Source: Streptomyces sp. NBC_01275 (GTDB taxonomy: Bacteria; Actinomycetota; Actinomycetes; Streptomycetales; Streptomycetaceae). From it: a DNA stretch of 64,000 nt. Position 1 is the first letter of the stretch. Every line of letters starts with the position of its first letter. The notes beneath the pieces were generated by a model, which saw nothing but the letters and a program-made list of their open reading frames with translations, did not search any database and was not told where the DNA came from. Position numbers and translations under genes: made by a program. The stretch spans positions 3,100,001 through 3,164,000 of the forward strand of contig NZ_JAPEOZ010000001.1 in NCBI RefSeq assembly GCF_026340655.1. Reading direction: 5' to 3'. Positions 28,020-44,396 of the stretch are shown here, piece after piece.

Positions 28020-28072
28020 GGAAGCTCAGCCGCCGGAAGAAGCCCGGCCGCGGCGGAAGTTCAGCCGCCGGA
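28020..28072. terminator. bidirectional hairpin region between convergent genes
   Basis: GGAAGCTCAGCCGCCGGA (28020-28037) and GGAAGTTCAGCCGCCGGA (28055-28072) are near-identical direct repeats. CCGCCG and CGGCGG elements within and between them allow alternative stems. It covers the stop codon of the dihydrouridine synthase gene and probably ends transcription from both sides. Confidence 0.5.
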
Positions 28073-29266
28073 GGTGTCCAGCTCCGCGTCCTCGCTGACG
28101 CCCGCACAGTCGTAGGGGTCCTTCAGCCAGCCGTCCGGGAGTACGACGCGGTTGTTGCCGGAGGTGCGGCCGCGAGGCCCGTCCGCGCCGGTCGGCCAGG
28201 GCTGGTCGAGGTCCAACTCGTCCAGCCCGGAACGGAGCTCCTCCAGGGACGACGTGATCGCGAGCCGCTTGCGCATCTCGGAGCCGACCGCGAATCCCTT
28301 CAGGTACCAGGCGACGTGCTTGCGGAAGTCGATGACCCCGCGCGCCTCGTCGCCGATCCACTCGCCGAGCAGGGTGGCGTGGCGGACCATGACGTCGGCG
28401 ACCTCGCGCAGCGACGGGCGGGCGATGTCCTCCGTACGGCCCTCGAAGGCGGCCACCAGGTCGGCGAACAGCCACGGCCGGCCCAGGCATCCGCGCCCGA
28501 CCACCACTCCGTCGCAACCGGTCTCCCGCACCATCCGCAGCGCGTCCTCGGCGGACCAGATGTCGCCGTTGCCGAGGACGGGGATCTCGGGAACGTGCTC
28601 CTTGAGGCGGGCGATCGCGTCCCAGTCCGCCGTGCCGCCGTAGTGCTGGGCGGCGGTGCGGCCGTGCAGCGCGATCGCCGTGACGCCCTCCTCGACGGCG
28701 ATGCGGCCGGCGTCGAGGTAGGTGATGTGGTCGTCGTCGATGCCCTTGCGCATCTTCATCGTCACGGGCAGGTCTCCCGCGCCGGTGACGGCCTCGCGCA
28801 GGATGGCGCGCAGCAGGTTGCGCTTGTAGGGGAGGGCCGAGCCGCCGCCCTTGCGGGTCACCTTGGGGACCGGGCAGCCGAAGTTCAGGTCGATGTGGTC
28901 GGCGAGGCCCTCCTCCGCGATCATGCGGACGGCCTTGCCGACGGTCGCCGGGTCGACGCCGTACAGCTGGATCGAGCGCGGCTTCTCGGTCGCGTCGAAG
29001 TGGATCAGCTGCATGGTCTTCTCGTTGCGCTCGACCAGCGCCCGCGTCGTGATCATCTCGCTGACGAACAGCCCCTTGCCGCCGCTGGCTGCATCCTTTG
29101 AGTCGCCTTCGGCGAAGGACCTGCACAGGGTGCGGAAGGGCGCGTTGGTGATCCCGGCCATAGGGGCCAGCACGACGGGCGTCTGGACGGCGTGCGGGCC
29201 GATCTGCAGGGTGCGGTTCTCGGTCCGGTTCTCGGTCCGGTTCTCGGTGGGCGCGGTCGTGGGCAT
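28061..29266 (-). CDS. dusB: tRNA-dihydrouridine synthase
   Basis: FMN enzyme (401 residues) that reduces specific uridines in tRNA to dihydrouridine. Visible are the FMN-barrel start (VVLAPMAGITNAPFRTLCR), the catalytic Cys in HIDLNFGCPVPKVTRKGGG, and phosphate-binding segments (IPVLGNGDIWS, GVVVGRGCLGRPWLF). The N terminus has three ENRT units from a 12-bp repeat. I chose the ATG at 29266, although GGGGGA lies very close to it; an ATG six codons upstream (29284) is possible. It is divergent from a drug exporter gene. Confidence 0.94.
   Translation of the reverse strand: MPTTAPTENRTENRTENRTLQIGPHAVQTPVVLAPMAGITNAPFRTLCRSFAEGDSKDAASGGKGLFVSEMITTRALVERNEKTMQLIHFDATEKPRSIQLYGVDPATVGKAVRMIAEEGLADHIDLNFGCPVPKVTRKGGGSALPYKRNLLRAILREAVTGAGDLPVTMKMRKGIDDDHITYLDAGRIAVEEGVTAIALHGRTAAQHYGGTADWDAIARLKEHVPEIPVLGNGDIWSAEDALRMVRETGCDGVVVGRGCLGRPWLFADLVAAFEGRTEDIARPSLREVADVMVRHATLLGEWIGDEARGVIDFRKHVAWYLKGFAVGSEMRKRLAITSSLEELRSGLDELDLDQPWPTGADGPRGRTSGNNRVVLPDGWLKDPYDCAGVSEDAELDTSGG
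29208..29243. repeat. 12-bp tandem repeat in dusB N-terminal codons
   Basis: GGTTCTCGGTCC occurs about three times and encodes ENRT units on the minus strand, at residues 7-18 of the dihydrouridine synthase. Confidence 0.88.
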
Positions 29267-29324
29267 TCCCCCATTGTCACGCATCGGCGCGAGTGCCCGG
29301 CATCCCGCTCCGGCAATGATCATG

Positions 29325-30899: not shown

Positions 30900-31778
30900 C
30901 TAAGCAAGTGCGCTCGCCGCCGGTTGCAAAGCAGACCCCGACTCCATCGCGTAAAGCCTCGCCAGTCGCTCCCTCGACTCCTCGTCCACCGGGGCGTACG
31001 TCACCATCCGCGCCCCCAGTTCCGGGCTCAGCCACAGGTCTGTGTGGTGGAGGGTGAGGAGGCCCACGTGGGCGTTGCGGAACTGTTTGGTCTTGGTTCG
31101 GCTGGCGACGATCTCGTAGCGCTCCCAGTTCTCGCGGAACTCGGGGGACTCCGCCTGGAGGCGCTTGACCAGCATCTTCCAGGCCGGTTCGGAGAGATGG
31201 CCGGCCATGGAGGCGCGCAGTCTCGCCGCCATCAGACGCATCGCCTCCTCGAGGTGGACGATCGACTCCCGCCACTGCGGATTGGTGTGGACGAGGAGCA
31301 TGCAGTTGCGGTCCTCGGGCGGGACGGCGTCGAGGTCGCACAGGAGACGGGCGTAGGTGCGGTTGTAGGCCAGGATGTCGTAGCGGCTGTTCTGGACACA
31401 GGCGGGCATCGGGTCGAGTTGGTCGAGCAGTTCGCGTACGGCGTCCGTGACGCCGGTGCAGGACGCGGCCGGGGTCGGGTCGTTCGCGTCGGCCAGCTGG
31501 AACAGGTGGGCGCGTTCGCTGCGGTCGAGCATCAGGGTGCGGGCGAGGGCGTCCAGGACCTGGACGGAGACATGGATGTCCCGGGCCTGTTCGAGCCAGG
31601 TGTACCAGGTGACGCCGACCGCGGAGAGGTGGGCGACCTCCTCGCGACGCAGGCCGGGGGTACGCCGGCGCGTTCCCCGCTCCAGGCCCACCTGCTCGGG
31701 GGTGATGCGCTCACGGCGGCTGCGCAGAAAGGCGGCCAGTTCGTGACGCCGGACGTCCGCCTGAACCATCGTCGTCAT
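30900..31778 (-). CDS. MmyB-type XRE transcriptional regulator
   Basis: A 292-residue regulator with an N-terminal helix-turn-helix (about 10-75: LAAFLRSRRERITPEQVGL, PGLRREEVAHLSAVGVTWYT) and a C-terminal MmyB-like ligand domain (about 105-270: ACVQNSRYDILAYNRTYARL). Such proteins usually control a divergent oxidoreductase or exporter gene and may bind a fatty acid. Here the neighbour is a DHA2 exporter whose promoter contains an inverted repeat. Confidence 0.92.
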   Translation of the reverse strand: MTTMVQADVRRHELAAFLRSRRERITPEQVGLERGTRRRTPGLRREEVAHLSAVGVTWYTWLEQARDIHVSVQVLDALARTLMLDRSERAHLFQLADANDPTPAASCTGVTDAVRELLDQLDPMPACVQNSRYDILAYNRTYARLLCDLDAVPPEDRNCMLLVHTNPQWRESIVHLEEAMRLMAARLRASMAGHLSEPAWKMLVKRLQAESPEFRENWERYEIVASRTKTKQFRNAHVGLLTLHHTDLWLSPELGARMVTYAPVDEESRERLARLYAMESGSALQPAASALA

Positions 31779-31807
31779 GACACCAGGGTGCCTCGCCCCG
31801 GAGCCTG

Positions 31808-31839
31808 TTGCCAGGTACTCCTTCTACCAGGATAAGGAG
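31808..31839 (+). promoter_or_regulatory. promoter and operator of the second DHA2 exporter
   Basis: TTGCCA (31808-31813), 17 bases and GATAAG (31831-31836) fit a vegetative promoter. CTCCTT and AAGGAG (31834-31839) form an inverted repeat overlapping it, and GGTAC occurs on both sides. A bound XRE regulator would block RNA polymerase. Confidence 0.55.
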
Positions 31840-31879
31840 ACTCTGGTACCCGCCTGAGAGTCGGCGCAGGCTCGGGACC

Positions 31880-33361
31880 GTGACCGAAGCGACCGTCCCC
31901 ATCTCATCAGAGACCTCATCAAAGACCTCGTCAGAGGTCTCCTCCGAAGCCGCGTCCACAACCCCTTCACCCCTCGCCCCCGGCACCCTCAGCCCGCTCG
32001 GGCTGTTCACCGTGCTGCTCGCCGCAGCGCTCCCCCTCATCGACTTCTTCATCGTCAACGTCGCCCTGCCCACCATCGGCCGCGACCTCGCCGCGAGCGA
32101 GTCCGTCCTCGAACTCGTCGTCGCCGGGTACGGTCTCGCGTACGCCGTGCTGCTCGTCCTCGGTGGACGGCTCGGCGACCTGTTCGGACGCCGTCGGCTC
32201 TTCCTGGGCGGCATGGCCGCCTTCGGGCTGACCTCGCTGGCCTGCGGACTCGCGCCCGACGCCTGGTCGCTGGTCGCGGCCCGCGTCGCACAGGGCGCGG
32301 CGGCCGCCGCGATGGTCCCGCAGGTGCTCGCCACCATCCAGTCGTCCACCGAGGGCCCCCGCCGCGCCAAGGCGATGAGCCTGTACGGCGCGACCGCCGG
32401 CCTCTCCATGGTGGCGGGCCAGATCCTGGGCGGGGTGCTGGTCGCCGCCGACCTCGCCGGCACCGGCTGGCGGTCGGTGTTCCTGGTGAACGTCCCCGTG
32501 GTGATCGTCGGGCTGATCCTCGCCGTCCGTACCGTTCCGGAAACGCGTTCCCAGCGCCCCGAACCCGTGGACGGGCCCGGCACCGTACTGCTCGCCGTGG
32601 CCCTGCTGACGCTGCTCGCCCCGCTCACCGAGGGCCGGGCGGCGGGCTGGCCGCTGTGGACGTGGCTGTCACTGGCCGCGTTCCCCTTGGCCGCGGGCGC
32701 GTTCTACGCGGTGGAGCGGCGGGCCGACCGTCTCGGCCGTACGCCGCTGGTGCCGCCGAGCCTGTTCGCGCTGACCTCGCTGCGACGCGGACTGACGATC
32801 ATGGCACCGCTCGCCGTCGGTTTCAGCGGGTTCATGTTCGTCGTCGCGGTGGCCCTGCAGAGCGGGGCCGGACTGGGGCCGGTCCCGGCCGGGCTGGCGC
32901 TCGCGCCGATGGCCCTCGCCTTCTTCCTCGCCTCGCTCGCCGGGCCCCGGCTGATCGCCCGGTTCGGGTCGCGGGTGGTGACGGCGGGCGCGGTCCTGCA
33001 GGGGCTGGGCGTGGTGCTCATCCTGCTCGCGGTGCGCGCCGACTGGCCCGACGTCGGCCTCGTCGAACTGCTGCCCGGCGCGGTGGTCGCGGGCGCGGGC
33101 CAGGCGCTCCAACTGCCCGTCGTCATGCGGATCGTGATGTCCGAGGTGCCGCCGGCCCGCGCGGGCGTCGGCAGCGGCGTGATGGTGACCACCCAGCAGG
33201 CGTCCCTGGCGCTGGGCGTGGCCACCCTCGGCACCCTCTTCCTCTCCCTGGTCCCCGGGATGGGCATGCGCGACGCGCTGACGACGACGCTCGCCGTGCA
33301 ACTGGGCGGGGTCGTCCTGACCGGGCTGCTGAGTCTGCGGCTGCCCCGAAAGGTCGGCTGA
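31880..33361 (+). CDS. MFS transporter, DHA2 family
   Basis: Exporter of 493 residues with about 14 membrane helices, preceded by a 35-residue Ser/Thr-rich tail (SSETSSKTSSEVSSEAAS). Motif A is LGGRLGDLFGRRRLFLGGMA and motif C is GATAGLSMVAGQILGGVLV. I chose the GTG at 31880 (VTEATVPIS), because the upstream frame overlaps the promoter. It is divergent from the MmyB-type regulator, its probable repressor. Confidence 0.93.
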   Translation: MTEATVPISSETSSKTSSEVSSEAASTTPSPLAPGTLSPLGLFTVLLAAALPLIDFFIVNVALPTIGRDLAASESVLELVVAGYGLAYAVLLVLGGRLGDLFGRRRLFLGGMAAFGLTSLACGLAPDAWSLVAARVAQGAAAAAMVPQVLATIQSSTEGPRRAKAMSLYGATAGLSMVAGQILGGVLVAADLAGTGWRSVFLVNVPVVIVGLILAVRTVPETRSQRPEPVDGPGTVLLAVALLTLLAPLTEGRAAGWPLWTWLSLAAFPLAAGAFYAVERRADRLGRTPLVPPSLFALTSLRRGLTIMAPLAVGFSGFMFVVAVALQSGAGLGPVPAGLALAPMALAFFLASLAGPRLIARFGSRVVTAGAVLQGLGVVLILLAVRADWPDVGLVELLPGAVVAGAGQALQLPVVMRIVMSEVPPARAGVGSGVMVTTQQASLALGVATLGTLFLSLVPGMGMRDALTTTLAVQLGGVVLTGLLSLRLPRKVG

Positions 33362-33382
33362 GAAGCTGAACGAACCGGGGTC

Positions 33383-34435
33383 TCACCACAGGCCCGACCC
33401 GGAGTCGTGACCCCCGTCGTCGCCGTGATCGCCGTGATCGCCGTGGTCTCCGTGGTCCTCATGGCCCTCGAAGGCGTCGTGAACGTCCGTGACGTCGTCG
33501 TACATCCCGTGGGGGGCGTCGTAGGAGTCGTACGGGTCACCCTGGTCGTACGTGTCATGGGCCAGGTGGTCGACGTGATCGACGTGATCGACGTAGGGGT
33601 CGGCACCGAAGTCGGCGTCGGTACCGGGGTCGGTCTCGGTACCGGGGCCGGGGTCTGGGTCTGGGTCCGTACCGGAGTCGGTGGCGTCGGTCCCCGACCA
33701 GACCTCCCGTGCGGCCCAGCCTCCCACCCCCAGACCGCCCGCCCCGGCGAGGCGGCGGCCCCAGCGGCTGCGGTGTTCCGGGGGTGCGCCGTCGGTCAGG
33801 GCCGGGCCGGGGTAGGCGGGCACCAGGCCGCGCGGGCCGCCCGACCGGGGGACGTACACCCAGCCGCGCGCCCGGAATTCCTTGTCCGGGACGCCCACCT
33901 CCAGCGGGGCGAAGTGACCGGCCGCGGGTTCGTCTTGGCGTTGTGCGAGGACGTCGCGGTAGAGGTCGTCGGTGACGGCCAGGGCCAGGTCGCTGTCCGC
34001 CCGGCCGCCGAGCGCGGCCCGCAGCTGGGGCGAGTCCAGCACCCGGCAGGCGTGCACGACCGCCGTGCCGACGAACCCCGTCGCCGCCACGTACACCAGC
34101 CCCTGCGCCACGGACGCCCGCAGCCGGATCCGGCCGCCCGCGCCCGGTCTGTGGTTCAACCGGTGCAGAGCGCCCCGCAGTCCGCGTACGGCCGCCGGCA
34201 GGGCGTGTCCCTCGTCGATGCCCGGGGGCCAGATCAGCAGCTGCCCGTCCCCGCGGTCCTGGCGCGCGCAGTGGGCCGGGTCCACGCCGGCCACCCGGCA
34301 GGCCTGCTGCATCGCCCACAGCAGCCGGTCCTGCACGTCGAGGGCGGCGAAGTTCAGGCGTTTGCTGTATCCCTCGACGTCGACGACCAGGCACAGACGG
34401 CGGACGCCGGGGACCGCTGGCTCTTGGCCGGGCAT
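33383..34435 (-). CDS. class III nucleotide cyclase-like protein with acidic His/Asp tail
   Basis: A 350-residue protein. Residues 12-200 resemble an adenylate/guanylate cyclase domain: both metal-binding Asp positions are kept (D19 in VVDVEGYS and D63 in RGDGQLL). The transition-state Asn of the N-x3-R motif appears replaced by Val127 while Arg131 remains. So it may be active, altered in product, or only a binding domain. Residues 250-350 are rich in Asp, Gly, His and Tyr with GDH repeats and may bind metal. GAAGGGA precedes the ATG. It lies beside the dynamin/Hsp70 operon. Confidence 0.75.
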   Translation of the reverse strand: MPGQEPAVPGVRRLCLVVDVEGYSKRLNFAALDVQDRLLWAMQQACRVAGVDPAHCARQDRGDGQLLIWPPGIDEGHALPAAVRGLRGALHRLNHRPGAGGRIRLRASVAQGLVYVAATGFVGTAVVHACRVLDSPQLRAALGGRADSDLALAVTDDLYRDVLAQRQDEPAAGHFAPLEVGVPDKEFRARGWVYVPRSGGPRGLVPAYPGPALTDGAPPEHRSRWGRRLAGAGGLGVGGWAAREVWSGTDATDSGTDPDPDPGPGTETDPGTDADFGADPYVDHVDHVDHLAHDTYDQGDPYDSYDAPHGMYDDVTDVHDAFEGHEDHGDHGDHGDHGDDGGHDSGSGLW

Positions 34436-34490
34436 CGCAACGATCCCTTCTCTTAGGGGAGTTGAGGGGAACGGCGTCGGCGAGGACCGT

Positions 34491-34516
34491 CGGACTCCCT
34501 CCCGGGAGGGAGTCCG
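34491..34516. terminator. perfect 26-bp palindrome
   Basis: CGGACTCCCTCCC (34491-34503) followed directly by its reverse complement (34504-34516). In RNA it gives a long stem with a small loop, probably terminating the acidic-protein transcript; as DNA it could also be an operator for the cyclase-like gene. Confidence 0.8.
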
Positions 34517-34647
34517 GCGGACGGCGGCTGCCTAGCCTCGGTGACGTGGGCACGATCCGTTCCCACGGCGGGGAATCCGCGGCCGCCCGTCCGTCCGGTC
34601 CACCGGACCCCGGGGGAGGGCGGGCGGTCCGGGCCCCGGCCACGGGT

Positions 34648-34920
34648 TCAGACGGTCGGCGAATCCCCGGAGTCGTGCGAGTCGTCGTCGGCGTAGGAGT
34701 CGTCGTCGGCGTAGGAGTCGTCCGCGCCGTAGGAGTCGTCGGCGTAGGAGTCGTCGGCGGCATGAGAGCCGTCCGTGTCGTAGGCATCGGGCTCGTGGCC
34801 GTTCTCGCCGACGACGTACTCGGAAACGGATGTGTAGCCGGTTCCGTCCGCCGCCTCGATGACATCGTGCTCGGTCAACCGACCTTCGTCCCAGGTGTGT
34901 TCGTCCTCGTCCGTCGTCAT
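34648..34920 (-). CDS. small acidic repeat protein
   Basis: A 90-residue, strongly acidic protein. Residues 1-45 have normal composition (TEHDVIEAADGTGYTSVSEY); the rest is made of Ser/Tyr/Ala/Asp repeats such as DDSYADDSYGADDSYADD. GAGGGGGG lies before the ATG. I do not recognise it. It is upstream of the cyclase-like gene on the same strand and divergent from the first dynamin gene. Confidence 0.75.
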   Translation of the reverse strand: MTTDEDEHTWDEGRLTEHDVIEAADGTGYTSVSEYVVGENGHEPDAYDTDGSHAADDSYADDSYGADDSYADDDSYADDDSHDSGDSPTV

Positions 34921-35085
34921 GTCGCCCCCCTCTCGACCTCTCGGTCGTCGCCATCATGGCGTCCGGGAAGGGTCGAGTCGAGGAAAAAGCCGAAAAACAG
35001 TCAAGTCAGGTTTTCGCCGGGCACAATGACTTTTCTTGTGGGATGGGTCACATCGACTCGGAGAGCGGGTGAAGGGGGGAGACCC

Positions 35086-36738
35086 ATGAACGCCGAGGAC
35101 GCCTTGACCGGTTGCGCCCGCGCCGCCGAGCAGGCCGGAAAGGCGGCCGACGGGCTGGCCCAGGTGCTGCGAGCCGCCGCCGACGGGCTGGGGGAACCGT
35201 TGCGGCTCGCCGTGGCCGGGCAGATCAAGCGCGGCAAGTCCACTCTGGTGAACGCGCTGCTGGGCGAGCGCATCGCCCTCACCGGGCAGCTCGAAGTCAC
35301 CTTCACGGTCAGCGAGTTGTACTACGCCAGGGAGCGTAGGGTGACCGTCCGCCGACGGGACGGTTCCAGCCGGACGCTGCCGGCCGAGGCGTTCGGCGAG
35401 ATGACCGCCCGCGACGAGAGCCGGGCCGCGCTCCTGGCCGACGTGGAACGCGTCGAACACGGCCTGCCCAACCCGCTGTTGCGTGCCTTCCGGCTGGCGG
35501 ACACCCCGGGTCTCGGCAGCGTCCACGGCGTCGACTCGCAGAACACCCATGACTTCCTGGGCATCTCCTCCTTCGCCGGGGAGGAGGACCGCAAGGCGTT
35601 CGAGGCCGCCCTCGCCGCATCGGGCCGCACCGCGCGGGACGTGCACGACGACAGTGTGAACGAGATCCGGCGGGCCGACGCCGTGCTGTACCTCTTCGCG
35701 CGCGGCCTGCACGACCAGGACCGCCTGGGCGTACGGGAGTTCCTCGGCAACGCGGGCGACGACCGCACCCCGCTCAACACCTTCGGCGTGCTCAGCCGCT
35801 GCGATCTGCAGTGGCCGCCCAGCCAGGACTACGACGACGACTGCGACCCCCTCACCTGGGACCCGATGGCCGAGTCGGCCAAGATCGCCGAGAAGAACCT
35901 CGAACGGCCCAGCGTGCGCTCGGTGTTCTTCACGATCGTGCCGATCGCCGGGCTCCTCGGCGAGGGAGCGCAGTTGCTCACCGGCGACGAGCTCGACGTG
36001 CTCGCCGACCTCGCGAAGGCTCCGCCCCGGGTGCTGGTGAACCGGCTGACGGACACGGGCGTGTTCGCCACGGCCGAGCAGCTGCGGGGCATCGACGTGC
36101 CCGCGGACCTGCGCAGGGCCCTGATCGCGCGGATCGGCAGCTGGGGCGTCCACCTCGCCTGCGGGTTCCTGCGGGACGGGGCGAACGAGGAGCAGCTGCG
36201 GGCCGCGCTGGTCGAGGCGAGCGGTGTGGGCAGGCTGCGGGATCTCGTCGGCCGCCACTTCGGCAACCGCAACTCCCTGATCAAGCTGGACCACGGGTTG
36301 CGCTCGGTCGAGGGCGCGCTGGCCGGACTGCGCCGCGATGCCGTGAACGGCGGGCCCGCAGTACCGCCCGTCGCCGCCGAGGTGGCCGAGCGGCTGGAAC
36401 GGCTGCGTGCCCGCACGGCCGGCTTCGCCGAGCTGGCCGTCCTCTCCGCGTACTACCGCGACGAGCTGCGGTTGTCCCCGGCCGAGACGGACGAACTCCT
36501 GCGGATCACCGGGGAGTACGGCACGTCCCTGCCCAGTCGGCTCGGCCTGCCGCAGGACGCCGCACCGCACGAGCTGCGGGCCGCCGCCCTGGCCCGCGTC
36601 CACCGCTGGGCCCGCCGCGAGCAGGACCCGACCCTGGACCGCCCCTCGCTCCAGGCCGTACGAGCGGTACGCCGTGGCTGCGAGCGCCTGCTGCACGCCG
36701 TCCCGGAGTCGGCCGCATCCCGAGAGGAAGGCGCGTGA
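35086..36738 (+). CDS. dynamin-like GTPase (first)
   Basis: Large GTPase of 550 residues, expected to bind membrane or protein partners and change shape on GTP hydrolysis. P-loop GQIKRGKST at 45-53, G2 threonine region near 70-75 (EVTFTVSEL), G3 DTPG at 139-142, and a G4-like SRCDL after about 230. An insertion (VDSQNTHDFLGISSFAGEED) follows G3. The C-terminal half is helical. GAAGGGGGGA precedes the ATG. It opens an operon, with four bases before the GrpE-like gene. No membrane helix is obvious. Confidence 0.85.
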   Translation: MNAEDALTGCARAAEQAGKAADGLAQVLRAAADGLGEPLRLAVAGQIKRGKSTLVNALLGERIALTGQLEVTFTVSELYYARERRVTVRRRDGSSRTLPAEAFGEMTARDESRAALLADVERVEHGLPNPLLRAFRLADTPGLGSVHGVDSQNTHDFLGISSFAGEEDRKAFEAALAASGRTARDVHDDSVNEIRRADAVLYLFARGLHDQDRLGVREFLGNAGDDRTPLNTFGVLSRCDLQWPPSQDYDDDCDPLTWDPMAESAKIAEKNLERPSVRSVFFTIVPIAGLLGEGAQLLTGDELDVLADLAKAPPRVLVNRLTDTGVFATAEQLRGIDVPADLRRALIARIGSWGVHLACGFLRDGANEEQLRAALVEASGVGRLRDLVGRHFGNRNSLIKLDHGLRSVEGALAGLRRDAVNGGPAVPPVAAEVAERLERLRARTAGFAELAVLSAYYRDELRLSPAETDELLRITGEYGTSLPSRLGLPQDAAPHELRAAALARVHRWARREQDPTLDRPSLQAVRAVRRGCERLLHAVPESAASREEGA

Positions 36739-36742
36739 GCCC

Positions 36743-37558
36743 ATGACGGATCACATGGAAGGCTCGGAAGGCTCGGAACGCGAGGGGTCCCGCTGGCGCG
36801 GCTGGGGCGGCCGACGCGTCCGCCCCACCGAGAGCCGGAACGGCGAGGACAACGCCGGAGACAAGACGGGGAGCAAGACAGGCAGCAAGACGGGGAGCAA
36901 GACGGGGAGCAACGGCCAAGGCGGGGCCCGGCTCGACACCCTGGCCGAGTTCGAGGCTCGGGTCGAGGCCGCGACGCAGGCCCATGCCGCGACCGAGGCG
37001 CAGGCGTTGCGCGACACCCTCGCCGCCCTGCGCTCCCGCCTCGACCACGCCCTGGACGAGCTCGCCGACTGCCGGTCCGTCCTGGAGCTACGGGACGAGC
37101 AACTTGCCCTCCACGTAGGGGAGTCGGCCCGTGCCGCCGAGGAGATCGACGCCCTGCGCGCTCGTCTGGACTCCCAGGCCGCCCTCGCCGCCGAACTGCG
37201 CGCACTCCGGGAGACCGCCGCGCAGCCGCCTGCCGTCGTGCCCGAACTAGTTCGTACCGCGGACCAATTGGTGGACCTACGGTCCTCCGTGGCGGCCGGG
37301 GGCATCGACGCGGCGACGCTGCTGCGGTGGCTGGACCGCCGGCTGCCCGACCTGCTCGCCCGGGCCGACATCGAGACGGTCCAGGACGAGGACGAGGGTC
37401 CGCTGGACCTTTCCCGGCACGAGGTCGTGGAGACCCGCCCCGGCCCGGGGCCGCACCCCCGCGTCCTGGCGACCGTCCGCCCCGGCTACCGCTGGCACGG
37501 CCGCGTCCTGCGCCCGCAACAGGTCATCGCGTCCGTGGACGACACAGCACACGAATGA
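36743..37558 (+). CDS. GrpE-like protein with long coiled coil
   Basis: A 271-residue protein. Residues 1-62 are charged and disordered with four GSKT units; about 65-160 form a coiled coil; the C terminus (226-265) matches the GrpE beta domain: HEVVETRPG, then VLATVRPGYRWHGRVLRPQQ. GrpE releases ADP from Hsp70, and the next gene encodes an Hsp70, so this is probably its dedicated exchange factor. It is more divergent than the housekeeping GrpE. It starts four bases after the dynamin gene. Confidence 0.75.
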   Translation: MTDHMEGSEGSEREGSRWRGWGGRRVRPTESRNGEDNAGDKTGSKTGSKTGSKTGSNGQGGARLDTLAEFEARVEAATQAHAATEAQALRDTLAALRSRLDHALDELADCRSVLELRDEQLALHVGESARAAEEIDALRARLDSQAALAAELRALRETAAQPPAVVPELVRTADQLVDLRSSVAAGGIDAATLLRWLDRRLPDLLARADIETVQDEDEGPLDLSRHEVVETRPGPGPHPRVLATVRPGYRWHGRVLRPQQVIASVDDTAHE

Positions 37559-37655
37559 CAAGCCCAACAAAGCCCGACCAAGCCCGACCAAGCCCAACCG
37601 CACACGCACATCACGCACAGACCCCGGGGGGACCGGGGAGGGGGAGGCATGCGTC

Positions 37656-39185
37656 ATGTCCGCATTGGCGTACGGAATCGACCTGGGAACGTCCAACTCG
37701 TCGATCATGGTGAGCTCGACCGACGGCACCCTGGTCCGCGTCAACGACCCGGCGTCGGGTCGGCCCTTCGTCCCGACCAGCGTCTGTCTGGGCCCGGGCG
37801 GACGGCTCCTGGTCGGCACCGAGGCCGAGAACGGCAAGAAGCTGCGGCCGGGCGACTATCGCAGCGAGTTCAAGCGGGACATCGGCGAGGACACCCCCTC
37901 GCCGATCGGCAACGCGTCCTACACCCCGCTCGACCTGGCCGCGAAGGTGCTGGAGTTCCTGCGCGAACAGGCCGAGCGGGCCGTGCCGGGCCGCCCCCGG
38001 CGGGTCGTGCTGACCGTGCCCGTGACCTGGGAGCGGGCCCGCCGCGGTGACATCCTGGACGCGGCCGTACGGGCGGGCTTCACCCGCGCCGACGTGGTCC
38101 TGGAGAGCGAGCCCGAGGCCGCCGTCCGCACGGCCTTCGAGGGGCTCGTCGAGGGCCCCCGCACGGTCCTCGTGTACGACCTCGGCGGCGGCACCTTCGA
38201 CTGCGCGGTGGCCCGCCGCGCCCCGGACGACACCTTCGAGGTCCTCGGCAGTCACGGGCTGGACGACATCGGCGGCTCCGACTTCACCCGCGCCGTCCTC
38301 GCCCTGTTGCGCAACCGCTTCCCGGGCCCGATGGCCGACCTCCTCGACGCCCACGGCGACGGCCACGTCGACGACGACACCCTGCGCCGCCGCATCCAGC
38401 TGTTCGACACCTGCGAGACGATCAAGGTACGGCTCTCCTCCCGCCGCGCCTACGAGGAACTCGTCACCGAACTCACCCCGCCCCTCGAACTCTCCCTCCC
38501 CCGCGAGGAGTTCGTGAAGGTCATCGCGCCCCTCGTCCGACTCACGGTGAAGAGCTGCGGGGACATGCTGGCGCATGCCGACCTGACCTGGGCGGACGTC
38601 GACCACGTGATCCCGGTAGGCGGCTCGGCCAAGATCCCGCTGGTCCGCAACCTGCTGACGGAGCAGTGGGGGCGGACGGTCCGCGTACCGGACGAGCCCG
38701 AGCTGGCCGTCGTCAGGGGCGCGGTCCTGTACGCCCGCGCCCAGTTGCGGCAGGAGGAGGCGGAGCGCCGGGCCAAGGCCGCGGCGAAGGCCAGGGCGGA
38801 GAAGGAGCGGCTGGAGCGCAGGGCGGCCGCCGCCGAGAAGAAACGGCGGGAGAGGCAGGAGCGCGAGGAACGGGAGGCCGCGGCGAGGAAGGCGGAGAAG
38901 GAGATCATGAAGAAGGTGAACGAGGGCCTGCCCAAGGCCGGTTCGACGTCGTCGGCGTCCACAGCCGCTTCCCGTCCCGCGTCGTCTTCCTCCTCCTCGT
39001 CCTCCTCGTCCGTCCAGCCGTCCACCCTCGTCGGGGGCGGGTGCGCCGGGATGTTCGGGGGCGGGGTGCTCGCGGGCATCATCGGGGCGCTCTTCGCCGG
39101 CGGGGACGTCTCGGACGGCGCGTTCGCGTTCTTCGTCATCGCCGGAGCGGTCGTCGGCGCGATCGTCGCCGCGGCGAACTCCTGA
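37656..39185 (+). CDS. Hsp70-family ATPase with C-terminal coiled coil and membrane anchor
   Basis: A 509-residue protein. Residues 1-362 are a full Hsp70 nucleotide-binding domain: phosphate-1 YGIDLGTSNSSI (6-17), phosphate-2 VYDLGGGTFD (173-182), adenosine motif IPVGGSAKIPLVRNL (319-333). The usual substrate-binding domain is missing. In its place come a charged coiled coil (362-425), a Ser-rich linker (430-455) and two hydrophobic segments (458-482, 489-507). The ATPase therefore appears to be tethered to the membrane. GGAGG lies eight bases before the ATG. The neighbours supply a GrpE-like factor; no J-domain gene is seen. Confidence 0.88.
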   Translation: MSALAYGIDLGTSNSSIMVSSTDGTLVRVNDPASGRPFVPTSVCLGPGGRLLVGTEAENGKKLRPGDYRSEFKRDIGEDTPSPIGNASYTPLDLAAKVLEFLREQAERAVPGRPRRVVLTVPVTWERARRGDILDAAVRAGFTRADVVLESEPEAAVRTAFEGLVEGPRTVLVYDLGGGTFDCAVARRAPDDTFEVLGSHGLDDIGGSDFTRAVLALLRNRFPGPMADLLDAHGDGHVDDDTLRRRIQLFDTCETIKVRLSSRRAYEELVTELTPPLELSLPREEFVKVIAPLVRLTVKSCGDMLAHADLTWADVDHVIPVGGSAKIPLVRNLLTEQWGRTVRVPDEPELAVVRGAVLYARAQLRQEEAERRAKAAAKARAEKERLERRAAAAEKKRRERQEREEREAAARKAEKEIMKKVNEGLPKAGSTSSASTAASRPASSSSSSSSSSVQPSTLVGGGCAGMFGGGVLAGIIGALFAGGDVSDGAFAFFVIAGAVVGAIVAAANS

Positions 39186-39211
39186 CCGGCCGGCCGAGAG
39201 ACGGAGTTCCC

Positions 39212-41203
39212 GTGCAGAACACGCAGAACACGCAGAACACTCCCCCTCCCCCGAACGCCACCGCAGGGCAGAGCGCGCAGCAGACCGAACTGGACCGCCT
39301 TCGCGCCGACATCCTCGCCTTCTTCCCGACCGTCGCCGACCTGCTGGACGAGGAGGACGCCTCGACCCGGCGCAGGGTCCTCGCGGAGAGCAGGGAGCGG
39401 CTGGCCTCCGACGAGTACTACGTCGTCGTCTGCGGCGAGTTCCGGCGCGGAAAGTCGAGCCTGCTCAACGCGCTCGTCAGGCGGCGCAAGCTGTTTCCGG
39501 TGGCGGTGGACGTGACCACGGCCATCGTGGCCACCCTGCGCTGGGGTCCGACCGAGCGGGCACGGGTGTGGCCCCTGCCCGACCCGAACCGGCCGGACTC
39601 CCGCCCCGCGCCCTTCGAGGTGCCGCTGGCGGAGGTGCGGCGGTACGCGACCGAGCAGGAGAACCCGGACAACGTCAAACGGGTGGACCGTATCGAGATG
39701 GAAGCGCCGTTCGCGCCGCTGAGGTCGGGGCTGGTGCTGGTGGACACCCCGGGGGTGGGGAGCGTCAACCCCGCGCATACGGCGGCCACCCGTTCCGTGC
39801 TGCCGCGGGCCGACGCCGTGCTGTTCGTCGGATCGGCGGTGGAACCGCTCTCGACCGTGGAGCTGGACTTCCTGCGGTACACGCTGGAGCGGTGTCCGGT
39901 GATCGTCACCGCCGTGACGATGATCGACAAGGTGGTGGATCCGGACCCGGTGGTCGCGCAGGCCAGGGCCCGGATCGCCCGGGTCTCGCAGGTGCCGCCG
40001 GAGGACCTCGTGGTCGTAGGGGTGTCGGCGTTCCGGCGGTGGGCGGCCGAGGAGGAAGAGGATCCGGTGCTGGCGGCCGATTCCGGCTTCCCGGAGTTGG
40101 AGTCGGCGCTGTGGGAGGGGCTCGCCGAGACCTGCGGGCGGGCGGCCCTGCGGATCGCGCTGGACCGGCTCGACGAGACCCTGGAGGAGATCGCCGCGCC
40201 GCTCACGAACGAGGCCGCGGCGCTGCAGAGCGGTGAGGCGCTGGCGGAGGTGGAGAAGGAGATCCTCCGGACGCAGGAGACGCTCACGGCGTTGCGCTCG
40301 CAGAGCAGCCGGTGGCGGCGCGAGCTCCAGGACGATCTGGAGCAGGCCGTGCGTCCGGTGCGCGGGCGGCTGACGGCGGCGATGGACGCGGCGCGGGAGG
40401 CGTTCCGCCGGGGCTGCGAGGACGAGCGGGCGGCGAAGGAGCCCGAGCGGCTGGTGCGGGCGGCCACGCTGGCCCTGCTGGAGGCGTCCGACCGGGCGGT
40501 GAAGGAGCTGGAGTCGGCGGTCCTGGAGGTGGCGCAGCGGTACGGTTCGCTGGCCTCGGTCCCGCTGACCGCGCAGGTCGCGGCCCCGGCCGTGCCGAAG
40601 CTGTCGACGCCGTCGCTGTCGGGGCTCGGCGAGGAGTCGGCCGGCACGGCGGGGAAAGGCGGCTGGAAGCGGTCGCGTATCGCGTGGAGCAGCGGTGAGG
40701 CGGGCAGTGGCATGGGGCTGGCGGCCGGGGCGGTGATCGGTCTGGTCATCCCGGTGATCGGGCCCTGGATCGGCGGTTTCGTCGGCAGTCTGATCGGCCA
40801 GTTCGCCGGGATGATCGGCGGCAGCAGGCAGGACCGGGCCGACGAGGAGGCGCGGGCCGCCCGGGAGCGCACCCGGCGGTTGAAGGAGAGCGTGCTGCCG
40901 GTGCTGGACTCCGGCCGCCGTCAGGTGGAGCAGGAGTTCAACGGGCACATCCGGGACAGCTCCCGGGCCCTGGCGAACGCCCTGGAGGACCAGCTGGCCG
41001 CCCAGGCCGAGACCATGGCCGGGACGGTGCGCCGGCTCCAGGAGGTCCGGCGCAGCACGGCCCGGGAGCGTGCCGAACGCCTGCCGGTCGTGCGGCGACG
41101 GCTGGCCGCCCTGGACCCGGTCCGCCGGCGCTCCCAGGACCTGCGCCGACGTGTCGCCCGCCTCGGCGCGACCCCGCCCTCCGACGGCCCGGCCCCCGCA
41201 TGA
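39212..41203 (+). CDS. dynamin-like GTPase (second), membrane-inserting
   Basis: A 663-residue GTPase. P-loop GEFRRGKSS at 75-83, G2 threonines near 102-103 (VDVTTAIVATL), G3 VDTPGVGSVN, G4 TMIDKV. A long helical region follows, then a Gly-rich hydrophobic stretch (GLAAGAVIGLVIPVIGPWI and on to GMIGG) that could insert in membrane, and a C-terminal coiled coil. This layout resembles bacterial dynamin-like proteins. The GTG start follows ACGGAG. The N terminus has three QNT units from a 9-bp repeat. The stop overlaps the Crp-type gene start. Confidence 0.87.
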   Translation: MQNTQNTQNTPPPPNATAGQSAQQTELDRLRADILAFFPTVADLLDEEDASTRRRVLAESRERLASDEYYVVVCGEFRRGKSSLLNALVRRRKLFPVAVDVTTAIVATLRWGPTERARVWPLPDPNRPDSRPAPFEVPLAEVRRYATEQENPDNVKRVDRIEMEAPFAPLRSGLVLVDTPGVGSVNPAHTAATRSVLPRADAVLFVGSAVEPLSTVELDFLRYTLERCPVIVTAVTMIDKVVDPDPVVAQARARIARVSQVPPEDLVVVGVSAFRRWAAEEEEDPVLAADSGFPELESALWEGLAETCGRAALRIALDRLDETLEEIAAPLTNEAAALQSGEALAEVEKEILRTQETLTALRSQSSRWRRELQDDLEQAVRPVRGRLTAAMDAAREAFRRGCEDERAAKEPERLVRAATLALLEASDRAVKELESAVLEVAQRYGSLASVPLTAQVAAPAVPKLSTPSLSGLGEESAGTAGKGGWKRSRIAWSSGEAGSGMGLAAGAVIGLVIPVIGPWIGGFVGSLIGQFAGMIGGSRQDRADEEARAARERTRRLKESVLPVLDSGRRQVEQEFNGHIRDSSRALANALEDQLAAQAETMAGTVRRLQEVRRSTARERAERLPVVRRRLAALDPVRRRSQDLRRRVARLGATPPSDGPAPA

Positions 41204-41880
41204 CCGCCGTCTGGGCGGCCGGCAGCCTGCTGGACACGATCGACACGGTGGACCGGGACGCGCTGCTACGACTGGGCACCCGGCGTCGGTACGCCGACCA
41301 GGAGGTGTTGATGGCGGCCGGGGCGGTCGGCGACGCGGTGTACATGCTGCTCGACGGCCTGGTCCTGGTGGTGGGGGCGACGGAGGACGGCGAGGAGCCG
41401 GTGCTGGCGATCCGCGCGGCGGGCGAGGTGGTCGGGGAGCTGGCGGTGCTGGACGGGAATCTGCGGTCCGCCACCGTGCGGGCCGCGGGTCCGGTCACCG
41501 CGCTGCGGATCGCCCCCGCGTCGTTCATCGCGTTTCTGCACTCGCATCCGGCGGCCCAGTTGCAGGTGTTGCGCAGTGTGGCGCGCAAGCTGCGGTCCGC
41601 CACCCAGCGGCGGATAGAGACCAGCGGCTGCGACGCACGGCGACGGCTGGCCCGGGTGCTGTACGAGCTGGCGGCGGAGTACGGCCGTCCGCGCCGCGAC
41701 GGTGCCGTGTTGCTGGAACTGTCGCTGAGCCAGCGGGCGTTGGGCAGTCTGGCCGGGGTGTCGGTGTCCACGACGGAACGGATGCTGGCGGAACTGCGCG
41801 CGGAGAACGTCCTGACAACCGGTTACCGACAGTTGCTCCTGCTGTCCCCGGACCGCCTGACGACCCTGTGCGGCTACTGA
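41200..41880 (+). CDS. Crp/Fnr family transcriptional regulator
   Basis: A 226-residue regulator with an N-terminal cyclic-nucleotide-binding fold (about 15-125: MLLDGLVLVV, GEVVGELAVLDGNLRSATVR) and a C-terminal winged helix (about 140-220: LELSLSQRALGSLAGVSVST). The phosphate-binding cassette keeps GELAxL and an Arg. The ATG overlaps the dynamin stop (ATGA). With a cyclase-like gene nearby, it might sense a cyclic nucleotide and control this operon; this is inference. Confidence 0.9.
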   Translation: MTAVWAAGSLLDTIDTVDRDALLRLGTRRRYADQEVLMAAGAVGDAVYMLLDGLVLVVGATEDGEEPVLAIRAAGEVVGELAVLDGNLRSATVRAAGPVTALRIAPASFIAFLHSHPAAQLQVLRSVARKLRSATQRRIETSGCDARRRLARVLYELAAEYGRPRRDGAVLLELSLSQRALGSLAGVSVSTTERMLAELRAENVLTTGYRQLLLLSPDRLTTLCGY

Positions 41881-41984
41881 TGCCCGGCGTCCTTCGGCGT
41901 CCCCGGCGCCCCCGTATCTCCAGTCCCCGTCAACTCCCCGTAACGATCCTCCCATTGATCTTCCCGTTACTGCACACTCGCGTC

Positions 41985-42203
41985 ATGCCACAGATGACGA
42001 CGAGCAAGGTGAGCCGCTGGGACCAGCACGGCCGCGAGCATGTGGTCCGGGTGCAGCGTTCGGGTGTGCAGCGCACCATCAGATGTGACACGTGCGGCTG
42101 GCGGAAGGGAGCGCAGTTCCTGCCCTGGCTGAAGGCGGCCGAGCATCTCGCCGAGGCCCACCAGGCGACCGTGGACCCGGCGGAGGAACAGCCGCCGCGA
42201 TGA
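41985..42203 (+). CDS. small putative zinc-finger protein
   Basis: A 72-residue protein with CDTCGWRKGAQFLPWLKAAE followed by HLAEAH, a Cys-x2-Cys...His-x4-His pattern that could bind zinc. The N terminus is basic (VSRWDQHGREHVVRVQRSG). An internal ATG at 41994 is a possible alternative start. It lies 104 bases after the Crp-type gene, and could be the last member of that operon or independent. Confidence 0.65.
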   Translation: MPQMTTSKVSRWDQHGREHVVRVQRSGVQRTIRCDTCGWRKGAQFLPWLKAAEHLAEAHQATVDPAEEQPPR

Positions 42204-42225
42204 GTTCAGCACCGGAAGGCCGGCC

Positions 42226-43398
42226 ATGAGCGCTCTTTACGACACCCTGCGACGGTACGTCGACGACGGCGTCGTGCCCGGAGCGGTGGGCCTGGTGGCC
42301 CGCGGCGACGACGTGGAGACGGTGGCCGTCGGCTCGCTGGACGCGGAGGGCTCCGCGCCGATGACCCGGGAGTCCCTGTTCCGGGTCGCCTCGATCACCA
42401 AGCCGATCACGGCGGCGGCGCTGCTGACGCTGGTGGAGGACGAGCGGCTCGCGCTGGAGTCGCCGGTGGCCGAGTGGCTGCCGGAACTGGCGAAGCCGCT
42501 GGTGGTCCGTACGCCGTCCGGCCCCGTGGACGACCTGGTCCCGGCGGCCCGTCCGATCACCGTCGAGGACCTGCTGACCTCCCGCCCGGGATGGGGCTTC
42601 CCCTCGGACTTCGCGCTGCCCGCCGTCCAGGCGCTCTTCGGCGTGCAGAGGGACGGCCGGTTCCCGCAGGGGTATCCCGGCCCGGACGCCTGGCTGGCGG
42701 AGCTGGCCCGGGTGCCGCTGCTGTACCAGCCCGGCGAGGCGTGGCTGTACGGCACGGCGTCCGACCTCCAGGGCGTGCTGATCGCGCGGGCGTCGGGACG
42801 TACGCTGCCCGACTTCCTCGCGGAGCGGATCTTCGAGCCGTTGGGCATGAAGGACACGGCGTTCGAGGTGCCGAAGGAGAAGCGGGACCGTTTCACCACC
42901 GCCTACACCGCATACAGTCCCGACGGCGCGGGCGGCACGGGCGGGGCGGGTGCGCTGGAGGTGGCGGACGTGCCGGACGGCGAGTGGAACCGCCTGCCCG
43001 CGTTTCCGTCCGGGGGCGGGGGCCTGGCGTCGACGGCCGACGACATGCTGGCCTTCTTCCGGCTGCTCCTGCACAGCGGCGAGGCGGGCGGCCGGCGGAT
43101 CCTCTCCCCCGGCTCGGTCAGCCGGATGACCGCCAACCACCTCACCCCGGCCCAGCGCGAGATCGGGGCGCTCTTCCTGGAGGGCCAGGGCTGGGGCTAC
43201 GGCGCGCAGGTCGACGTGACCCCCGCCGACCCGTGGAACGTCCCCGGCCGCTACGGCTGGGTCGGCGGCACCGGCACCACGGCCCACCTCGTCCCGCCCA
43301 CCGGCATGATCACGATCCTGCTGACCCAGGTGGCGATGGAGAGCCCGACGCCGACCCCGCTGATGCGGGACTTCTGGCGGTGCACGGCGGGGGCCTGA
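42226..43398 (+). CDS. serine hydrolase (beta-lactamase/class C-like family)
   Basis: A 390-residue serine hydrolase. The active-site S-x-x-K is ASITKPITAAAL near residue 52, the Tyr motif is GEAWLYGTASDLQGVLI, and the third motif resembles HxG as GGTGTTAHLVPP. No signal peptide is seen, so it is probably a cytoplasmic esterase or amidase rather than a cell-wall enzyme. It begins 22 bases after the small zinc-finger gene. Confidence 0.92.
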   Translation: MSALYDTLRRYVDDGVVPGAVGLVARGDDVETVAVGSLDAEGSAPMTRESLFRVASITKPITAAALLTLVEDERLALESPVAEWLPELAKPLVVRTPSGPVDDLVPAARPITVEDLLTSRPGWGFPSDFALPAVQALFGVQRDGRFPQGYPGPDAWLAELARVPLLYQPGEAWLYGTASDLQGVLIARASGRTLPDFLAERIFEPLGMKDTAFEVPKEKRDRFTTAYTAYSPDGAGGTGGAGALEVADVPDGEWNRLPAFPSGGGGLASTADDMLAFFRLLLHSGEAGGRRILSPGSVSRMTANHLTPAQREIGALFLEGQGWGYGAQVDVTPADPWNVPGRYGWVGGTGTTAHLVPPTGMITILLTQVAMESPTPTPLMRDFWRCTAGA

Positions 43399-43448
43399 GC
43401 GGGAGCCGCCCCTCTGGGTCGGCGCCGGTCGGCGCTTTGCGCGTGTGG

Positions 43449-44396
43449 TCAGGCGACGCGGAGGACGCTCTTTCCCCGGGTGACGCCCTCGGCGAGGCGC
43501 TGCACGGCGACGGCCAGGTCTGCAAGGTCGTACTCGGCGGTGACGTCCACGCGCACCCGGCCGTCGGCGACGAGGCCGAGGGCACGGCGGGCGCTGTCGG
43601 CGAGCCGCTCGGGGTGGGTCCGGCTGAGCAGGTTGCCGTTGTAGGTCAGCAGTGACTTGCCGTGCATGAGCAGGTCGTTGGCATCGGCGAGGACGGGTTC
43701 GTACGTGGCGAGGTTGCCGTAAGCCACCAGTCGGCCGTGCGCCGCGAGCCGCTCGAGGCCGGCGGTGCGGGTCGAGCCGCCGACCGGGTCGAGGATCACG
43801 TCGAACGTGTCGTCGCCGAGCTTGGCCGGGAACTCCTCGCGGAGCAGGAGCCGGTCGTACCCGAACTGCGCGGCGTAGTCGGCCCTTTCTGCGGTGCCGA
43901 CCACGCCGACGATCCGGCCCGCTCCGGCCAGCCGGGCGAACTGGGCGGCGAGTGTGCCGACCGAGCCGGCGGCCGCGTGGATCAGCACGGTTTCGCCGGG
44001 CCGCACCTGCGCGGCGGTGTTGATCAGGTCGTAGGCGGTCGGCGCGCCCCATCCGAGCCCTGCGGCCGTCCTCAGCGGCATGCCGCCGATGCCGAACGCG
44101 AGCGTGGCGGACGCGAGGACCGTCTCGGCGTAGGCCCCTGAGTCGGTCAGCGCGGTGACGGCCTCGCCGACACGGCGTACGTCGACGTCCGCGCCGACCG
44201 CGACGATGTGCCCGGACGCCTCGAACCCGGGGACGAAGGGACGCGGTACGGCGAAGTGGCCGTCCCTGACCATGGTGTCGCCCCACTGGATCCCGGCGTA
44301 GGCCACGCGGATCGCCACCTGGCCGGGGCCGGCGGCGGGCTCGTCGAGTTCGGCGACCCGGTAGCGGTCATCGGCGTCGAGAACGACAGCCTTCAT
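43449..44396 (-). CDS. zinc-less quinone oxidoreductase (MDR family)
   Basis: NADPH-dependent oxidoreductase of 315 residues. The catalytic domain starts MKAVVLDADDRYRVAELDEP with PGFEASGHIVAVG; the nucleotide site is AAGSVGTLAAQFARLAGAGR. The zinc-binding cysteines of alcohol dehydrogenases are absent, as in quinone reductases. GGGG precedes the ATG. It is divergent from a MarR gene across a region with a long inverted repeat, so it probably responds to an electrophile or phenolic compound. Confidence 0.93.
   Translation of the reverse strand: MKAVVLDADDRYRVAELDEPAAGPGQVAIRVAYAGIQWGDTMVRDGHFAVPRPFVPGFEASGHIVAVGADVDVRRVGEAVTALTDSGAYAETVLASATLAFGIGGMPLRTAAGLGWGAPTAYDLINTAAQVRPGETVLIHAAAGSVGTLAAQFARLAGAGRIVGVVGTAERADYAAQFGYDRLLLREEFPAKLGDDTFDVILDPVGGSTRTAGLERLAAHGRLVAYGNLATYEPVLADANDLLMHGKSLLTYNGNLLSRTHPERLADSARRALGLVADGRVRVDVTAEYDLADLAVAVQRLAEGVTRGKSVLRVA

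Follow-up and report, generated by a model that had tools for sequence, protein, structure and literature searches.

Gene content of the locus

The 64,000-nucleotide stretch of the Streptomyces sp. NBC_01275 genome studied here (contig NZ_JAPEOZ010000001.1, hereafter called the window) contains at positions 33383-41880 a block of genes encoding two dynamins, a GrpE-like protein, an Hsp70 and a Crp-type regulator, with genes for a cyclase-fold protein and a small acidic protein divergent from these (Table 1). Relatives of the gene set recur in many bacteria, and the set therefore has the look of a machine that works on the cell membrane and has been little described. The genes and domains had been assigned earlier from the letters of the DNA alone (the sequence-only reading), and this assignment was confirmed by matches in Pfam and PDB and, for the cyclase fold, by a predicted model.

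Table 1. Features of the block in the window of Streptomyces sp. NBC_01275
Feature	Position	Strand	Evidence and remarks
Class III cyclase-fold protein	33383..34435	-	Fold domain residues ~10-197; D/H-rich acidic tail, last residue Trp
Acidic repetitive protein, 90 aa, 33% D+E	34648..34920	-	Composition; no Pfam family match
Crp-site-like palindrome TGTGGGATGGGTCACA	35037..35052		Inside divergent intergenic region; pattern TGTGA-N6-TCACA
Dynamin 1	35086..36738	+	GTPase motifs; Pfam Dynamin_N 42.6 bits; best PDB match IniA N-part, E 2e-10
GrpE-like protein	36743..37558	+	Pfam GrpE 35 bits (cut-off 25.8); likely coiled coil and C-terminal GrpE wing domain
Hsp70	37656..39185	+	Nucleotide-binding domain, then charged stretch, C-terminal hydrophobic hairpin; ATPase residues kept
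Dynamin 2, IniA-like	39212..41203	+	Pfam 82.1 bits; phmmer IniA 6j72 E 2.4e-23; Gly-rich hydrophobic hairpin ~503
Crp/Fnr-type regulator	41200..41880	+	Pfam; PDB match 3h3u E 6.7e-15; GEL...RSA stretch

Recurrence of the gene set

A profile of 40 dynamin 2 sequences (cut-off E up to 1e-40) was searched against 394 genomes of one class and matched at 60 places in 57 genomes, representing 24 of 137 genera. All 60 places (the window and 59 loci) were examined, with genes called by a codon-usage script that was tried on the window and partner genes detected within a neighbourhood of 7 kb by profiles grown from the window genes. Related genomes in the census do not count as independent; a single genus accounts for 17 of the 60 places. 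Six canonical DnaK and three canonical GrpE matches were set apart by hand before the neighbourhoods were counted.

Dynamin 1 was found within 7 kb of dynamin 2 at every one of the 60 places, and within 200 bp at 46 of them. A non-DnaK Hsp70 was present within 7 kb at 51 places, compared with about 0.7 expected from a simple density estimate based on Hsp70 numbers per genome, and these neighbours were spread over 21 of the 24 genera and 12 of 13 families. The proposal that the genes form a module rather than a set of unrelated neighbours is upheld by these counts. The sequence-only reading had let the module stand or fall by conservation of the gene order beyond close relatives; such conservation was found for the partners but not for the exact order, and the Hsp70 gene is often divergent. 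Canonical dnaK genes near loci of the mycobacterial iniBAC type were considered as the source of the Hsp70 signal and rejected, the canonical hits having been set apart beforehand. The GrpE-like gene was near dynamin 2 at 16 of the 60 places (10 genera, 5 families), and the cyclase and Crp profiles each matched at three.

Six loci with weak dynamin 2 matches (L009-L014) gave no match to the Hsp70 profile. A contig titled as an acidobacterial metagenome-assembled genome, possibly mis-binned, carries the dynamin pair, Hsp70 and IniR. At one GrpE-type locus (L045, 10894-12818) a resolvase gene and an IS605 OrfB/Cas12f1-like TnpB gene lie between dynamin 2 and Hsp70.

Relationship to iniBAC-type loci

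The profile for the IniR-type STAND-LuxR protein matched 34 of the 60 loci and the IniB-N profile 32, whereas the window has no IniR match within 7 kb and no match to the IniB-N profile. The 16 loci with GrpE and the 34 with IniR do not overlap. In a tree of dynamin 2 (62 rows, with a long-branch warning and a root for drawing only), a branch supported at 100/99 separates all 16 GrpE loci, the window among them, and also L007 and L046, from all 35 IniR loci. The Hsp70s of the GrpE and IniR loci cluster too in a quick tree of 57 rows, in which family f6 was thinned, but 5 and 3 changes are needed. The block represents a lineage of dynamin loci that bears GrpE and is sister to the iniBAC type.

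The two types share a pair of IniA-like and IniC-like dynamins and an acidic or IniB-type partner, and differ in the GrpE, Crp and cyclase-fold genes of the window. A non-DnaK Hsp70 is likewise within 7 kb in 17 of 17 places in the genus g8 (iniBAC-type by profile, likely Mycobacterium).

The dynamin pair

Dynamin 2 aligns by phmmer with IniA (6j72) over residues 48-623 of 663. Hydropathy indicates a hydrophobic hairpin in dynamin 2 and a weaker peak, with no strong hydrophobic paddle, in dynamin 1, which is probably IniC-like, given its position. The G1 motif is present in 58 of 60 dynamin 1 and 56 of 60 dynamin 2 proteins of the census loci. IniA showed membrane scission activity, which its authors called relatively low, suggesting that IniC may help (PMC6715688). 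The hairpin in one protein and the weaker peak in the other would fit a heterotypic pair such as Cj-DLP1/2, two dynamin-like proteins that are encoded side by side (PMC6104087).

An Hsp70 with no detected substrate-binding domain

The substrate-binding domain (SBD) of this genome's own DnaK was used as a probe and matched five of the six canonical DnaKs, the sixth being incomplete at the end of its stretch, and none of the 70 non-canonical Hsp70s at dynamin loci. In the window Hsp70 neither an SBD nor a DnaK-type interdomain linker was detected, and the ATPase residues Asp8, Lys70, Glu147, Asp168 and Thr173 (numbering of this genome's DnaK) are kept. A hydrophobic segment follows residue 330 in 50 of the 70 proteins.

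When Hsp70s of 400-900 amino acids were compared, the ATPase residues were intact in 17 of 17 from GrpE loci and in 4 of 5 from loci with neither GrpE nor IniR. Among 44 from IniR loci they were fully kept in 9, kept as far as readable in 4 more and degenerate in 31, of which 29 belong to the family f6, unlike which the window Hsp70 keeps these residues. In f6 loci, for example L089 (12592-14379), the Hsp70 lies beside an IniA/IniC-type pair, has lost the Asp, Lys and Thr positions of the ATPase and mostly has one membrane segment; these proteins are likely pseudo-ATPases, judging from the lost residues. For an Hsp70 nucleotide-binding domain that lacks an SBD and has a GrpE of its own, the role of an ATP switch is more plausible than that of a folding chaperone. 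Among phage records, 16 had Hsp70 matches, none of which covered 80% of the query.

The GrpE-like protein

Pfam GrpE matches of less than 50 bits numbered 18 in the 57 genomes with dynamin 2, 16 at dynamin loci and 2 elsewhere, one of the 18 (genome G122) being below the Pfam cut-off. Only one such divergent GrpE was found in 57 dynamin-2-negative genomes of the same draw, which were taken in listing order, were not genus-matched and were on the whole smaller and less complete (44 compared with 55 of 57 passing the quality line). When 7 of the 15 other GrpE-like proteins of dynamin loci were scanned individually, all 7 were above the Pfam cut-off, some barely. At half of the 16 GrpE loci (8) the gene is flanked by the two dynamins, and at all 16 it shares their strand. 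A search with the single window sequence matched 2 of 61 genomes, the source genome included, and two Streptomyces homologues (P0001 and P0002) were the relatives among 8000 scored candidates. In PADLOC the protein matched LmuB at E 0.0011, through a coiled coil.

Thirteen GrpE loci carry an Hsp70, and in 12 of these a membrane segment was predicted in GrpE or Hsp70, by hydropathy only and in some cases barely over the threshold; none was predicted in either protein of L047, nor in the three GrpE loci without Hsp70. Contact between GrpE and Hsp70 is suggested because this predicted anchor shifts between the two proteins from locus to locus. In L098-L102 the GrpE domain is C-terminal in a protein with a lipobox-like leader and one membrane segment, an unusual architecture for GrpE. 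Asp-rich open reading frames of 81-120 amino acids with short DxDGDG repeats, which suggest calcium binding, are found near the GrpE genes of family f19 (L084, L098-L102).

The cyclase-fold, Crp and acidic proteins

It had been proposed that a cyclic nucleotide sensed by the Crp protein perhaps sets the assembly or disassembly of a membrane coat. The class III cyclase fold is supported by a predicted model, not a solved structure. Both metal Asp residues and the Arg are kept in the fold domain, whereas the transition-state Asn position is not and the substrate-choosing Lys seemingly is not, as judged by eye from a weak alignment (E 0.086) to a solved cyclase. We take these residues to have their usual roles, Asp in metal binding, Asn and Arg in the transition state and Lys in choosing the substrate. 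The catalytic competence of the protein is thus doubtful, and the cyclic-nucleotide signal stays a proposal. Many homologues carry long D/H/G-rich tails, several ending on or near Trp; that of the window protein (33383-33600) is possibly a metal-binding or docking tail.

The Crp protein aligns with the solved Crp/Fnr-family regulator 3h3u through the nucleotide-binding cassette, and its GEL...RSA stretch resembles the phosphate-binding cassette for cyclic nucleoside monophosphates (cNMP). The pairing of the cyclase-fold and Crp genes held up, both being present in 5 of 66 loci and each in 6 (hypergeometric p 4e-6, with no correction for relatedness, L112 and L113 being closely related). Pycsar was considered for this pair and rejected, since the cyclase-fold protein has no PycC match and the cNMP-binding protein has a DNA-binding domain, not an effector. 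The palindrome is the only match to its pattern in the 64 kb with at most one mismatch, 0.81 being expected by chance per window, and nothing better than three mismatches was found in the examined regions of L046, L112, L113, L007 and L053.

An acidic or IniB-type open reading frame was near dynamin 2 in 47 of the 60 loci, a count for which there is no null model of acidity, and the 90-amino-acid acidic protein is possibly the counterpart of the IniB-type partners.

Place in the chromosome and sister loci

A gene near the block (28061-29284 of the window) is present in 30 of 31 genomes, counting the source genome. Both genes flanking the block were found in 8 of 18 same-genus stretches compared and are 119-158 bp apart in 6 of these 8; in the remaining two they are separated by 2,102 bp of other sequence or rearranged. 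The 18 comparison genomes gave no dynamin 2 match at E 1e-60. Because the flanks are so close in six of the eight relatives, the block looks like a clean single insertion, with a gain of about 8.5 kb matching the interval 33383-41880, or losses elsewhere. No direct repeats were found at the borders of the insert and no RNA families at gathering scores in 31000-43500, and promoter and terminator scans gave no more matches than shuffled sequence.

Dynamin 2 is patchy in the genus, being found at E 1e-60 in 6 of 121 genomes, and Hsp70 is near it in all five of the other genomes. Two of these Streptomyces loci contain genes for a C39 peptidase and for vWA, PP2C and kinase proteins (by Pfam for L109, with PP2C and C39 above the cut-offs and vWA and kinase just under). 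Two others, L112 and L113, contain a DO-GTPase pair with Hsp70, Crp and cyclase (L112 by Pfam; the L113 open reading frames are ~93% identical), and the fifth ends at a contig edge. Among 72,556 plasmid records the sole match at E 1e-20 was plasmid pANA01 of Anabaena sp. 90 (L114), which has two dynamins, an Hsp70 (matching in the nucleotide-binding domain only), DO-GTPase1, a DO-GTPase2 match under the cut-off and a C39 peptidase. Identity to the Streptomyces counterparts is 41% for its 187-amino-acid protein and 44% for its C39 protein. This cluster is a plasmid-borne cyanobacterial case of a DO-GTPase with Hsp70, C39 peptidase and a dynamin pair; DO-GTPase systems have been described as nearly absent in cyanobacteria (Kaur et al. 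2020, PMC7159879). Proteins of 412-512 amino acids with no Pfam or PADLOC match are also encoded close to the DO-GTPases and dynamins (L112, 7969-9507; L114, 1375-2613 and 4749-6188). No GAP1 match was obtained in the scanned genes of L112 and L114, which do have DO-GTPase.

Comparison with known systems

No complete PADLOC defence system was matched by the block, and identity with a known PADLOC system was therefore rejected; Hsp70, the cyclase-fold protein and the acidic protein had no PADLOC match of any kind. Dynamin 2 matched LeoA (E 2.6e-22) and LeoBC (E 1.3e-20), and weakly JetC and PDC-M09B, while the Crp protein matched Pycsar proteins through the cNMP domain. In the sister loci the L109 kinase gave a match (best PD-T4-6), and an Anabaena dynamin matched AriA/ZorA weakly. 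LeoA/LeoBC (Eleos) and Cj-DLP1/2 resemble the window in being dynamin pairs encoded side by side, and neither kind of locus is known to contain Hsp70 or GrpE.

The description of the module as undescribed was too strong. In cyanobacteria, dynamin-like proteins of a 'chaperone clade' have a DnaK-domain protein encoded downstream, as the window has Hsp70 by its dynamins, and a link between dynamin and Hsp70 was proposed there; section 7 of that account mentions no GrpE, Crp, cyclase, SBD loss or pairing (PMC5827413). A dnaK-like gene is located beside iniR in M. smegmatis, and iniBAC-type loci respond to cell-wall drugs (PMC5760070). GAP1-N2 DO-GTPase systems, which likewise occur in actinobacteria, combine GTPases with HSP70 and GrpE, in a subset with an SBD-less HSP70, and have been associated with membrane proximity (Kaur et al. 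2020, PMC7159879). These three associations are thus already in print. The GTPases of those systems are, unlike the window's, DO-GTPases, and they are accompanied by GAP1 and FNIII proteins; the main text of that paper does not use the word dynamin, and none of the seven genes of the block matched DO-GTPase or GAP1 in Pfam. No locus combining dynamin, Hsp70 and GrpE was described among the literature matches listed, which did not cover subscription papers.

Interpretation

The sequences establish the parts and their linkage, the intact ATPase and GTPase motifs, the lack of a detectable SBD and the apparent gain as one block. The most likely reading, at about even odds, is a membrane machine of two dynamins controlled by an Hsp70 ATPase switch that would lack an SBD, be tethered to the membrane and have a GrpE exchange factor to itself. 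This reading draws support from the linkage of dynamin 1 and Hsp70 to dynamin 2, the concentration of divergent GrpE genes at dynamin loci, the position and strand of GrpE, the intact ATPase residues in GrpE loci, the predicted membrane anchor, the apparent clean insertion and the scission activity of IniA. The dynamins would form a heterotypic pair, the IniA-like member inserting into the membrane and the IniC-like member being its soluble partner. Their assembly on the cell membrane would be gated by the tethered nucleotide-binding domain of Hsp70, which would act on the dynamins and be reset by the GrpE-type factor. The Crp protein would set expression, perhaps informed by the cyclase-fold protein, and the output would be to repair or remodel the membrane during attack on the envelope or by phage, with a function in envelope stress or conflict defence.

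Several observations weigh against this gated-machine reading. Hsp70 is not within 7 kb in 9 of the 60 dynamin loci, and three of the 16 GrpE loci (L075, L078, L081) have no Hsp70 in the stretch examined. GrpE is absent from L007 and L046, though these are on the same branch of the dynamin tree, and from the Streptomyces loci L109, L110, L112 and L113. In eight GrpE loci Hsp70 is on the opposite strand from dynamin 2, and the genes are therefore not one operon there. The hydrophobic segment after residue 330 is lacking in 12 of 17 GrpE-locus Hsp70s, so that the membrane-bound form of the window is not typical of these loci. The ATPase decay in IniR loci is largely that of one family and may be explained by a single event. 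Hsp70s usually need a J-domain protein, and no J-domain match was found in Pfam among the seven block genes, the relatives not having been searched systematically; a candidate in L047 with an HPD triplet was rejected, the protein matching a C39-like peptidase.

It is rather unlikely, though the likeliest of the alternatives, that the locus is an anti-phage or anti-invader conflict system comparable to the NTP-dependent systems described by Kaur et al. (2020). In it the dynamin pair would be the membrane effector, while Hsp70/GrpE, DO-GTPase or kinase-phosphatase-vWA would stand in for one another as parts that sense or set a threshold. The sister loci do swap control parts (DO-GTPase, Crp and cyclase in L112/L113, vWA-PP2C-kinase with C39 in others, and the pANA01 set), the occurrence in the genus is patchy, and dynamin 2 resembles LeoA and LeoBC, Dynamins/Eleos being counted among defence systems (PMC11811056). 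This likeness may, however, be one that dynamins share at large. None of the known defence systems was matched in full, and the other branch of the tree holds the drug-responsive iniBAC-type loci, for which no phage link is apparent in the account consulted (PMC5760070).

The ATP-driven assembly or disassembly of a membrane coat put forward in the sequence-only reading, with Hsp70 and GrpE chaperoning the dynamins as Hsc70 does clathrin, agrees with the co-occurrence of these genes and with the intact ATPase residues next to a GrpE, but has become improbable. Uncoating by substrate binding is weakened because no part of the Hsp70 is visible that would bind a substrate, the DnaK-type domain being undetected in all 70 non-canonical proteins and the linker in that of the window, and no J-domain protein was matched in the block. 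Co-inheritance of the genes as a stress regulon with no shared complex is still less probable; the variable gene order and the often divergent Hsp70 would suit it, but the divergent GrpE occurs almost solely at dynamin loci and the shifting predicted anchor suggests contact.

More broadly, and with slightly less confidence than an even chance would allow, the loci may represent a mobile class found across phyla, in which a membrane-tethered Hsp70 switch without an SBD, together with a dedicated GrpE, operates a heterotypic dynamin pair, the control part being interchangeable (Hsp70-GrpE, DO-GTPase, kinase-phosphatase-vWA, cyclase-Crp or IniR) and iniBAC being a specialised branch with a pseudo-ATPase Hsp70. 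As regards what controls iniBAC-type and other bacterial dynamins and what their roles are, an Hsp70 and a GrpE that are dedicated to a dynamin pair and coupled to it offer a concrete, testable controller. If correct, the gated-machine reading would provide a case of an Hsp70 ATPase serving as a switch with no peptide-binding domain, and would connect the cell-wall-stress loci of the iniBAC type with the GTPase-based conflict systems that multicellular bacteria have.

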